A DNA stretch of 64,000 bases. It comes from Salinivibrio sp. ES.052. Its GTDB lineage: Bacteria > Pseudomonadota > Gammaproteobacteria > Enterobacterales > Vibrionaceae. The notes under the pieces were generated by a model that worked only from the letters and a program-made list of their open reading frames with translations, had not been told where the DNA came from and ran no database searches. This document shows positions 49,279 to 51,332 of the stretch, in pieces (the stretch's first letter is position 1; every line of letters starts with the position of its first letter). The stretch lies in contig NZ_FSRI01000003.1 of NCBI RefSeq assembly GCF_900141775.1, positions 186,001-250,000 on the forward strand, in the 5' to 3' direction. The position numbers and the translations under genes were made by a program.

Positions 49279-50006
49279 GGTGTTAAGGCCTTTCTGAGTT
49301 GTTTTATCGCCTCGACCGATTGTGGATTATCTCCATGCACACACACCGTATCCGGCGATAGGGTGAGCGTTTGCCCCTCAAGGGTTGTCACCGTGCCATG
49401 TTGAGATAGCTGCAACACCTGCGCAATCATCGCGTTAGTGTCATCTAACACCGCGCCCAGTTGACCGCGTGGCGCTAATTGCCCTGACGCCAGATAGGCT
49501 CTATCAGCAAAGGCCTCAAAAATCAGCGGCACACCGGCTTGTTGAGCAAGCTGGCGATGCTGACGGTTATCAGGCAGTGCCAGCACCATTAATGGTGTAT
49601 TGGGCAGCGTATCAGCCACCGCAGCCAACACCGCTTCAAAGCAATCATTGTCCACCATCATGGTGTTATACAGCGCACCATGGGGCTTCACATAATCAAG
49701 GCTCGCATTAAATCGCGCACAGATCCCTTGTAGCGCACCGATTTGATAGCGAACGAGGTGACTAATTTGTGCTGGGGTATGATCAATATGACGACGGCCA
49801 AAGCCCTGCTTATCGGCGTAACCGGGATGAGCACCAATACTCACATTGTGCTTTACTGCGAGTGCCACCGTGGCCGCCATCACATCAGGGTCAGAGGCAT
49901 GAAAACCACACGCGATATTAGCCATATCAATCCACGGCATTAGCGCGCTATCCACCCCCATCGTCCACGCACCAAAGCTTTCACCCATGTCTGCGTTTAG
50001 TTTCAT
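49275..50006 (-). CDS. pxpA: 5-oxoprolinase subunit A (LamB/YcsF family)
   Basis: A 243-residue LamB/YcsF protein: LNADMGESFGAW at the N-terminus, MANIACGFHASDP, VSIGAHPGYADKQGFGRR, VKPHGALYN and the C-terminal CVHGDNP. It is the third subunit needed for ATP-dependent opening of 5-oxoproline. First gene of the operon. ATG 50006 follows GAGGGAGTG; the GTG just before it is an alternative start. The operon salvages a spontaneous glutamine/glutamate breakdown product. Confidence 0.93.
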   Translation of the reverse strand: MKLNADMGESFGAWTMGVDSALMPWIDMANIACGFHASDPDVMAATVALAVKHNVSIGAHPGYADKQGFGRRHIDHTPAQISHLVRYQIGALQGICARFNASLDYVKPHGALYNTMMVDNDCFEAVLAAVADTLPNTPLMVLALPDNRQHRQLAQQAGVPLIFEAFADRAYLASGQLAPRGQLGAVLDDTNAMIAQVLQLSQHGTVTTLEGQTLTLSPDTVCVHGDNPQSVEAIKQLRKALTP

Positions 50007-50127
50007 CACTCCCTCGATTTCACTGACTTTGCTTTACCTTACGGCTTTTTAACCCGCGGATAAACCAACAAAATAGTTAGGATGTGAGTCTTGTGTCGTA
50101 CTCATAAGACTGATAGTTTTAACCACT

Positions 50128-50193
50128 ATGAAAACGGTATTTGATACACACACTCTATTGATTTTTCGCACCCAGTGGTGGCGCGCGCTTTAG
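50128..50193 (+). CDS. Tryptophan leader peptide of trpS (21 codons)
   Basis: ATG 50128 opens a 21-codon frame ending at TAG 50191-50193. Its codons 17 and 18 are tandem Trp (TGGTGG, 50176-50181), preceded by IFRTQ and followed by RAL. Two Trp codons in a peptide of this size are highly unlikely by chance, and they sit in the strand-1 position of the attenuator that follows. A weak ribosome binding site is the only soft spot. The peptide is not expected to act itself; ribosome position on it is the signal. Confidence 0.78.
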   Translation: MKTVFDTHTLLIFRTQWWRAL

Positions 50194-50278
50194 CGTGCCA
50201 TTGAGTCTGGGTATTTATTGGCCGCCGGTAGGCAGTCAATGAGTCGTTTTCAACTTCCCTGTCTCCGTCGGCTTTTAT
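50170..50278 (+). promoter_or_regulatory. Ribosome-mediated transcription attenuator before trpS
   Basis: Strand 1 (ACCCAG 50170-50175 and GGCGCGC 50180-50186) pairs with strand 2 (GCGTGCC 50193-50199 and CTGGGT 50207-50212). The 3:4 terminator is GCCGCCGG (50221-50228) plus GGCAG (50231-50235) against CTGTC (50259-50263) plus CCGTCGGC (50265-50272), then TTTT. The antiterminator pairs CATTGA (50199-50204) and CTG with CAG-TCAATG (50233-50241), which breaks the terminator arm. A ribosome stalled on the Trp codons (50176-50181) would free strand 2 and allow read-through into trpS. Confidence 0.75.
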
Positions 50279-50294
50279 CCTCAAGGAGACACCA

Positions 50295-51332
50295 ATGCAC
50301 ACCCCCTACTCTATCGACAAAAACGCTATCGACAAAAACGACGTTATTCTGACCGGCGATCGCGCCACTGGCCGCTTACATCTTGGTCATTACAGTGGCT
50401 CACTTAGCCAACGACTTGCTTTACAAGGACAATGTGCTCAAACCATTCTGGTCGCAGATATGCAGGGATTAACCGACAATGGTCATCAACCAGGTCACGT
50501 CGCCACGCATATTTTAGGCTTGGTCGCGGACTATCTCGCGGTTGGGCTTGACCCTGATAAGGTCACAATTTGTCAGCAATCCCAACTTCCCGCGCTCGCA
50601 GAACTCACCATGTTTTATAGTAATTTAGTGAGTTACGCACGACTGGTCCGCAACCCCACGGTAAAACACGAAATCAACGACAAACAGTTTGGACAGCAAG
50701 TCCCCGTCGGTTTTTTAACCTACCCAATCAGTCAAGCTGCCGACATCACCGCATTTGGCGCTAACCTCGTGCCAGTAGGCGATGATCAACTTCCTATGAT
50801 CGAGCAAACCAACGACATTGTGCGCAAATTTAATCACGTTGTCGGCGAGCCTGTATTACGCGAATGTCGTGCACTCACCAGCAAAGCATCGCGCTTGCCG
50901 GGTGTTGATGGTAAAAGCAAGATGTCAAAATCTTTGGGTAACGCCATCTATCTTAGCGATGACAATGACACAATACGTGACGCGGTACGATCCATGTACA
51001 CAGACCCTCAACACCTGCGCGTCTCAGATCCCGGCCGAGTTGAAGGCAATGTCGTTTTTACCTATTTGGACACTTTCCATCCTGACGCTCAACACATCGC
51101 CGAACTCAAAGCACATTATCAGCGTGGAGGTCTGGGGGATATGACAGTGAAAAACGTGCTGACCGATAGCTTAATCTCCCTGATATCGCCCATTCGAGAA
51201 CGGCGAAAAGCACTAATGAACGCCCCTGATTACTTGTCTAATGTCCTAAAAGATGGGCAAAAAAAGGCGCGTATACAGACAGACCAAACATGCCAGAGCA
51301 TTAAGCGTGCGTTGGGCCTGCTTGTGGGATAA
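50295..51332 (+). CDS. trpS: Tryptophanyl-tRNA synthetase
   Basis: A 345-residue class I synthetase. The HIGH motif is GRLHLGHYSG (H29-H32), the KMSKS loop is KMSKSLGN (K209-S213), and ILVADMQGLTDNG and FGQQVPVGFLTYPISQAADITAFGANLVPVGDDQLP are typical of TrpRS. It charges tRNA-Trp. The ATG follows AAGGAGACACC. This is probably an auxiliary copy: it lies far from the rpe-gph context usual for the housekeeping trpS of enteric bacteria, and it has its own Trp attenuator. Confidence 0.92.
   Translation: MHTPYSIDKNAIDKNDVILTGDRATGRLHLGHYSGSLSQRLALQGQCAQTILVADMQGLTDNGHQPGHVATHILGLVADYLAVGLDPDKVTICQQSQLPALAELTMFYSNLVSYARLVRNPTVKHEINDKQFGQQVPVGFLTYPISQAADITAFGANLVPVGDDQLPMIEQTNDIVRKFNHVVGEPVLRECRALTSKASRLPGVDGKSKMSKSLGNAIYLSDDNDTIRDAVRSMYTDPQHLRVSDPGRVEGNVVFTYLDTFHPDAQHIAELKAHYQRGGLGDMTVKNVLTDSLISLISPIRERRKALMNAPDYLSNVLKDGQKKARIQTDQTCQSIKRALGLLVG
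50311..50340 (+). repeat. In-frame 15-base tandem duplication in trpS
   Basis: CTATCGACAAAAACG occurs twice head to tail (50311-50325, 50326-50340), giving IDKNAIDKND at residues 7-16. Being 15 bases it keeps the frame. It lies before the catalytic core and probably reflects replication slippage. Confidence 0.9.

Follow-up and report, generated by a model that had tools for sequence, protein, structure and literature searches.

A tryptophan-codon attenuator predicted to control an auxiliary tryptophanyl-tRNA synthetase gene in Salinivibrio and other Pseudomonadota

Here, we analysed a stretch of 64,000 nucleotides from the genome of Salinivibrio sp. ES.052 (contig NZ_FSRI01000003.1, positions 186,001 to 250,000; hereafter, the window), in which trpS2, a gene for an auxiliary tryptophanyl-tRNA synthetase (TrpRS), is preceded by a leader that most likely acts as a Trp-codon attenuator controlling this gene, a reading to which we assign a probability of about 0.85. 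The cell probably makes this spare TrpRS mainly when charged tRNA-Trp runs short. A sequence-only reading of the same DNA had proposed an attenuator in front of trpS; our analysis supports control of the Trp-codon, ribosome-mediated type and identifies the gene as the auxiliary trpS2, not the housekeeping-type trpS of this bacterium.

Results

The trpS2 gene (50295..51332, plus strand; 345 amino acids) was assigned by profile and sequence comparison. Its product is recognised as a TrpRS by TIGR00233 (231.8 bits against a cut-off of 176.75), the nearest named relatives come from Salinivibrio (96% identity in S. proteolyticus, 97.4% in S. kushneri), and the solved structures nearest to it by sequence are those of D. 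radiodurans TrpRS II, PDB 1yi8 (E 1.3e-105) and 2a4m (E 1.7e-105). The same genome encodes a second, canonical (housekeeping-type) TrpRS, which carries the motif DLHAIT and is 26% identical to the trpS2 product. By sequence, trpS2 is of the TrpRS II type and distinct from this canonical enzyme. The housekeeping-type trpS was ruled out as the attenuator target: it is a separate gene, and TGGTGG is absent from the 400 bases upstream of it. Divergent from trpS2, the gene order on the minus strand at 47648-50009 matches that of a carboxyltransferase (biotin-dependent family), pxpB and PxpA (5-oxoprolinase subunits) as annotated in S. kushneri.

The leader, on the plus strand like all elements described below, opens with an ORF of 21 codons, MKTVFDTHTLLIFRTQWWRAL (50128..50193), which starts at ATG 50128, is predicted to be leaderless or nearly so, and contains the tandem Trp codons TGGTGG (50176..50181), the putative sensor, within element 1. 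This ORF and its Trp codons had been correctly picked out before, as had stem 1:2, the anti-antiterminator (50170..50212), which is present in the minimum free energy (MFE) structure and is supported by RNAalifold and covariation. Element 2 (50193..50199; GCGTGCC here, AGCGGC in relatives) has element 3 as its partner in the antiterminator, according to folding and covariation. Hairpin B (3:4; 50213..50244), found in the MFE structure and the alignment, is the local alternative to the terminator hairpin T (50220..50276), a long hairpin in which elements 3 plus 4 pair with element 5 and which consists of the stem-loop at 50220-50273 and a U-tract, TTTT, at 50273-50276; folding, RNAalifold and covariation all support T, in agreement with the terminator and TTTT noted earlier at 50221-50276. 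The 5′ half of element 5, TGTCTCC (50260..50266), is a candidate anti-Shine-Dalgarno sequence, which in the MFE structure pairs with element 6, the trpS2 Shine-Dalgarno sequence GGAGACA (50285..50291), to form a helix, denoted 5:SD, that is also supported by covariation.

The MFE structure of the whole leader in the window combines 1:2, B and 5:SD, and the RNAalifold consensus of 56 sequences consists of 1:2 plus T, with 11/18 pairs changed on both sides. The earlier description holds for 1:2 and the terminator; it missed the hairpin at 50213-50244, the pairing of 50260-50266 with the Shine-Dalgarno sequence, and the predicted leaderless start. The antiterminator proposed earlier, 50199-50204 with 50236-50241, exists in the window and is not shared by relatives: all six pairs form in 1 of 56 sequences, the window's own, and 136/336 cells pair. 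The conserved antiterminator instead joins AGCGGC of element 2 with GCYGCY of element 3, and in the window GCGTGCC could form a helix, interrupted by one bulge, with GGCCGC of element 3. The window yielded no Rfam 15 family, T-box leaders included, at or above the gathering score, and a permissive Rfam search of 49900-50500 up to E 5 gave a single weak, irrelevant match. T is not listed by a generic terminator scan of 49700-50700, in which loop size is limited to 3-8 nt.

The predicted transcription start lies at or beside the leader AUG. The proximal promoter consists of a predicted -35 box, TTGTGT (50091..50096), a 17-nt spacer, and a predicted extended -10 element, TG-A-TAGTTT (50111..50119), with a -10 hexamer TAGTTT; it places +1 at 50126, 2 nt before the leader ATG, leaving a 2-nt 5′ UTR. 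The promoter scan is a generic sigma-70 scan, unanchored to any ATG, and its top-scoring site in the window is a different one (7.1 versus 6.6), with +1 located 44 nt upstream of the leader ATG. Among relatives, TGnTAnnTT is frequent at -15 to -7 from the leader ATG, and a tally relative to the nearest in-frame leader ATG in 169 leaders (one of 170 has no in-frame ATG) gives T at -35 and -34 in 72% each, G at -14 in 62%, T at -12 in 66% and T at -7 in 70%. In 111/169 leaders (71 of them exactly at it) and in 31/52 representatives, the predicted +1 lies no more than 3 nt from an in-frame leader ATG; 20 shuffles around the same ATGs averaged 11.6 and reached at most 16, and a comparable control scan of the trpS2 ATG gave 0/170. 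Outside the order, 12/14 loci have the predicted +1 within 2 nt of the leader ATG.

The leaders were drawn from a starting set of 205 loci, made up of 141 from the Vibrionaceae set, 63 from the order set and L004. Without 8 repeats and 10 loci lacking a TGGTGG leader, 187 remained; removal of identical leaders and of any without an accepted start left 171, and exclusion of the over-long L212 left 170. Alignment A1 comprises 56/66 representatives, all selected for TGGTGG, which is therefore invariant there by construction. It leaves out ten more divergent rows (L004, L234, L242, L251, L258, L259, L262, L264, L269 and L270), so that its pair counts lean toward Vibrionaceae-like sequences; swap tests draw on all 170 leaders.

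On A1, the fraction of cells paired was 95.8% for 1:2 (slid maximum 62.1%), 93.3% for T (66.9%), 89.3% for 2:3 (67.8%), 86.4% for 5:SD (54.3%) and 79.4% for B (47.6%). T has both-side changes in 8/11 pairs and, with a covariation score of 0.408, exceeds the other four helices counted. All five helices beat 500/500 shuffles in percentage paired, in cells changed on both sides and in covariation score. Two counting measures are weaker: among the 500 shuffles, the number of pairs changed on both sides was reached by 11 for 1:2, 1 for T, 9 for 2:3, 120 for 5:SD and 116 for B, and the number of pair types by 0, 92, 75, 13 and 235, respectively.

Relatedness was addressed by swap tests, in which elements were exchanged between disjoint nearest neighbours among the 170 leaders; pairs other than those scored worse or better were ties or uninformative. 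Below 95% identity (84 pairs), the swapped combination was worse/better in 7/1 cases for 1:2, 8/3 for 2:3, 22/4 for B, 16/6 for 3:5 and 20/9 for 5:SD; below 88% (80 pairs), the values were 24/1, 21/3, 28/9, 23/6 and 33/9, and below 80% (78 pairs), 32/1, 28/7, 47/6, 35/15 and 53/9, in the same order. The 2:3 result below 95% identity is not significant (p=0.11), and 5:SD with a wider element window gave 21/13 (p=0.11). Native pairing exceeded the row median in 43 of 53 representatives for 1:2, 28 for 2:3, 48 for 3:5 and 44 for 5:SD. Compensating changes in 5:SD are seen in L142 (CTTGCCTC:GAGGTAAG) and L004 (GCATTTCT:AGGAAATGC). Taken as sequence evidence, these data indicate that the mutually exclusive 1:2, 2:3 and terminator helices are supported by covariation, 2:3 being the weakest, and that the helix closing the trpS2 Shine-Dalgarno sequence is conserved. 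Both the Trp codons and the stems, on whose conservation the sequence-only reading had staked its case, are conserved in relatives.

The behaviour of these helices was modelled by folding the RNA with ribosome masks, the ends of which are an assumed ribosome edge; the mask for a ribosome at Trp-Trp covers element 1, and that for one at the stop codon covers elements 1 and 2. With element 3 made and element 4 not yet made, the mean probability of 2:3 is 0.12 with element 1 free, 0.97 with the ribosome at Trp-Trp and 0.16 at the stop codon (0.00, 1.00 and 0.49 in the window alone), and the Trp-Trp value exceeds the free value by >0.2 in 166/170 leaders. When RNA is folded up to the U-tract, the probability of T averages 0.74 free, 0.54 at Trp-Trp and 0.76 at the stop codon across 170 leaders, compared with 0.80, 0.07 and 0.79 in the window, where masking the leader as by a ribosome at Trp-Trp, a check suggested earlier, accordingly abolishes most of the predicted terminator; T is lower at Trp-Trp than at the stop codon by >0.2 in 66/170 leaders and higher in 0/170. 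In these models, the early 2:3 decision is sharp in nearly all leaders, while at equilibrium T responds strongly in the window but modestly when averaged over the leaders.

A U-rich tail (at least 5 U in 7 nt, within 11 nt) follows T in 68/123 Vibrionaceae leaders (200 shuffles: mean 18.3, maximum 28) and in 10/47 others, and follows B in 8/123 and 16/47, respectively. By another U-tract score, 41/170 leaders after T and 17/170 after B lie at or above the 90th percentile of the null, with 17 expected. Full-length RNA favours B plus 5:SD, which would make T a pairing of the ON state; this reading was rejected because T dominates folds that end at the U-tract, and the terminator proposed earlier therefore stands.

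In full-length RNA, the trpS2 Shine-Dalgarno sequence is mostly closed in all ribosome states (probability unpaired 0.18, 0.19 and 0.18). An ON-state fold with element 4 blocked also blocked the 4:5 pairing and was replaced by a fold with element 3 removed, which did not open the Shine-Dalgarno sequence (16 more open and 18 less open, of 170). Since equilibrium folding gives no such opening, any relief of sequestration must be kinetic or absent. If element 3 is kept from pairing, the probability that element 5 pairs upstream is 0.80 as long as the Shine-Dalgarno sequence has yet to be transcribed.

At a threshold of E <= 1e-60, trpS2 was found in 4/8 Salinivibrio genomes, 142/329 genomes of the family, 66/394 of the order, 17/369 of the class (the window's own included) and 42/398 of the phylum. 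A Trp-Trp (TGGTGG) leader precedes trpS2 at 138/141 loci of the Vibrionaceae set, which contains near-duplicates and the remnant L074 (the exceptions are L074, L101 and L187), and at 48/55 loci of other families of the order (exceptions L217, L237 and L271-L275). It occurs at 0/16 class-level loci and at 9/20 further phylum-level loci read, with twelve listed matches left out; three of the nine (L318, L320 and L322) are in genomes listed as the same class. By reading, L314 has a single-Trp version of the leader at the same place.

A covariance model of the leader, R1, searched against the family at E <= 0.01 and compared with trpS2 genome by genome, matched 145/329 genomes: 139 of the 142 with trpS2, four with strong matches and no trpS2 match, and two with weak matches only. 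The four (G039, G166, G214 and G267) carry pieces of trpS2 behind the leader, and the trpS2 genomes lacking an R1 match are those of L101 and L187, plus G299, in which the contig extends 204 bases upstream of the match. At loci without the leader, R1 found nothing up to E 1 in L002, L074, L101, L187, L237 and L271-L291, and a weak match (E 0.1) in L217. By this genome-level comparison, strong R1 matches coincide with trpS2 or its remnants. That the element regulates other genes was considered and rejected on the same grounds: among the matches listed, five weak ones that were inspected (E 0.001-0.007) are located upstream of other ORFs and are probably chance matches.

The gene has decayed in several genomes, and thus seems dispensable. 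In L074 (Salinivibrio siamensis), only a 3′ remnant of trpS2 is left; in L297, the trpS2 match ends near the contig end; in L298, a large unrelated ORF follows the first codons; L299 has an internal gap; and in L300, the match ends at residue 113. The leader RNA is still recognisable in L297-L300.

Discussion

We propose that the trpS2 mRNA begins with a ribosome-mediated attenuator, which would read the charging of tRNA-Trp. With transcription starting at or next to the leader AUG, ribosomes would initiate on a nearly leaderless ORF of 21 codons. When Trp-tRNA is sufficient, the ribosome would pass Trp-Trp, 1:2 would form or the ribosome would cover element 2, and element 3 would remain free, so that hairpin T could stop transcription at the U-tract; transcripts that escape would fold into 1:2, B and 5:SD and be poorly translated. 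When Trp-tRNA is scarce, the ribosome would stall at Trp-Trp and cover element 1, and 2:3 would pair before element 4 is made, blocking T, so that RNA polymerase would read through and trpS2 would be expressed as a second, perhaps inhibitor-insensitive, TrpRS. In the lineage of the window, we favour termination as the main output, because of the U-tract after T and a Shine-Dalgarno sequence that is mostly closed in all modelled ribosome states; sequestration would be a second, unproven layer.

Two alternatives share the core of this proposal and differ in the output, so that the odds on the output layer are split between them and the two-level form. Transcription attenuation alone, as put forward in the sequence-only reading, with 5:SD a by-product of selection on the terminator strand, is possible, albeit doubtful on balance: RNAalifold picks 1:2 and T, T leads the five helices in covariation, the window's terminator switches as expected, and folding shows no stall-driven opening of the Shine-Dalgarno sequence, whereas 5:SD displays compensating changes in L142 and L004 and is kept where T has no U-tract. 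Conversely, a purely translational attenuator, in which termination is minor and the formation of 2:3 and 4:5 during a stall exposes the trpS2 Shine-Dalgarno sequence, would explain why 5:SD is conserved and covaries even where neither hairpin has a U-tract, and would gain from the upstream pairing of element 5 prior to Shine-Dalgarno transcription; we nevertheless consider it unlikely, given the enrichment of U-tracts after T in Vibrionaceae and the equilibrium closure of the Shine-Dalgarno sequence whatever the ribosome state.

A further scenario departs from the core itself. The leader peptide or a short leader RNA could act in trans, cis control of trpS2 being secondary. Such action in trans is reported for trpL of Sinorhizobium meliloti, which has a comparable arrangement in that a leaderless Trp-rich ORF lies on an attenuator RNA (PMC7298713). 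This scenario appears highly improbable: leader peptides vary widely outside Trp-Trp, and strong model matches go with trpS2 or its remnants.

Cis attenuation of trpS2 follows the logic of the enterobacterial trp operon attenuator (trpL), which combines a tandem-Trp leader peptide with 1:2, 2:3 and terminator helices; trpL, however, controls biosynthesis and has a 5′ UTR with a Shine-Dalgarno sequence, whereas the leader described here precedes a gene for an aminoacyl-tRNA synthetase and is apparently leaderless. Among gammaproteobacteria, a synthetase gene under attenuation is known in E. coli pheST, which relies on Phe codons and encodes a housekeeping synthetase, unlike the Trp codons and auxiliary synthetase here. 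To our knowledge, leaderless ORFs are rare in gammaproteobacteria, and the leader ORF, if leaderless as predicted, would be one kept across families of this class. Vecchione and Sello worked on an indolmycin-resistant TrpRS and reportedly described attenuation in Streptomyces. In S. meliloti, trpL is an attenuator RNA with its 5′ end at the ATG of a Trp leader encoding a 14-aa peptide, and it controls trpE(G) (PMC7298713); the position of the leader ATG at the RNA 5′ end is shared with our prediction, and the host is an alphaproteobacterium.

The closest known system is the leaderless trpS leader of Streptomyces. The trpL2-trpS leader of S. lividans TK24 is reported to be leaderless and to have two hairpins and no uridine-enriched sequence (PMC8079986), and an attenuator has been predicted for S. 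avermitilis trpS2 (PMC1262725). Compared at the level of the leader, these systems are alike in having a Trp-codon leader directly before a TrpRS gene; the S. lividans leader has one Trp (MMTRTCTQLWRAA), whereas Trp-Trp, hairpins T and B, and 5:SD are features of the proteobacterial copies. No account of a trpS attenuator from Pseudomonadota turned up in our search of open-licence papers, and trpS has zero occurrences in the main text of PMC2965389 and PMC2659441. The present findings would extend TrpRS attenuation beyond Streptomyces and into many Pseudomonadota, through a conserved RNA for which the window gave no Rfam match, and would make it possible to separate, by mutation, the transcriptional from the translational control exerted by one stalled ribosome.

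His43 of the B. stearothermophilus-type TrpRS is tied to indolmycin sensitivity (PMC4899734), and an indolmycin cluster of Pseudoalteromonas is reported to include a tryptophan-tRNA ligase gene (PMC5069768). At the site of the His in the canonical DLHAIT motif, the trpS2 protein has Gln, as do 169/170 trpS2 loci, the remaining one being unread by the pattern. This position is probably that of His43, as judged from the B. stearothermophilus sequence and alignments to solved structures, and insensitivity of the trpS2 product to indolmycin is therefore only a suggestion. Gln in place of the indolmycin-linked His in a TrpRS II suggests that trpS2 is a natural, inducible reserve enzyme.

A broader proposal is that TrpRS II is accompanied by a mobile charge sensor, leaderless and acting at two levels, that controls both transcript completion and Shine-Dalgarno access of an inhibitor-resistant synthetase (resistant, e.g., to indolmycin); we regard it as tentative and, in this full form, rather unlikely. 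If it were true, any drop in charged tRNA-Trp, through starvation or an inhibitor, would turn on a bypass enzyme in many Pseudomonadota. A trpS2 homologue occurs in 91 plasmid records, labelled most commonly Staphylococcus (24) and Klebsiella (22), and 9 of the 12 records opened have the Trp-Trp leader, namely those of Klebsiella, E. coli, Salmonella, Rhizobium, Salinivibrio, Burkholderia pyrrocinia, Variovorax, Methylocystis and Deinococcus; the three without it are from Acinetobacter (L331), Staphylococcus (L335) and a Streptomyces-labelled record (L337). R1 recognises the copies of Klebsiella (E 6.5e-6), Rhizobium (6.6e-7), Salmonella (1.9e-6) and E. coli (0.0021), and a nucleotide search of plasmids with the leader returned Salinivibrio matches only. 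The likeness to Deinococcus radiodurans TrpRS II concerns the enzyme only; a plasmid of Deinococcus sp. KNUC1210 carries a related trpS with a Trp-Trp leader.

Two copies stand apart. The Streptomyces-labelled record, a 9.3-kb plasmid assigned to Streptomyces griseorubiginosus (NZ_CP107771.1), has a trpS 53.8% identical to that of the window beside a predicted mdeA efflux gene; the identity equals that of several Staphylococcus plasmid copies, and the record may be mislabelled. In Loigolactobacillus zhaoyuanensis (L065, 2707-2912), a related trpS is preceded by a T-box, that is, a related enzyme is joined to a different tRNA-sensing RNA.
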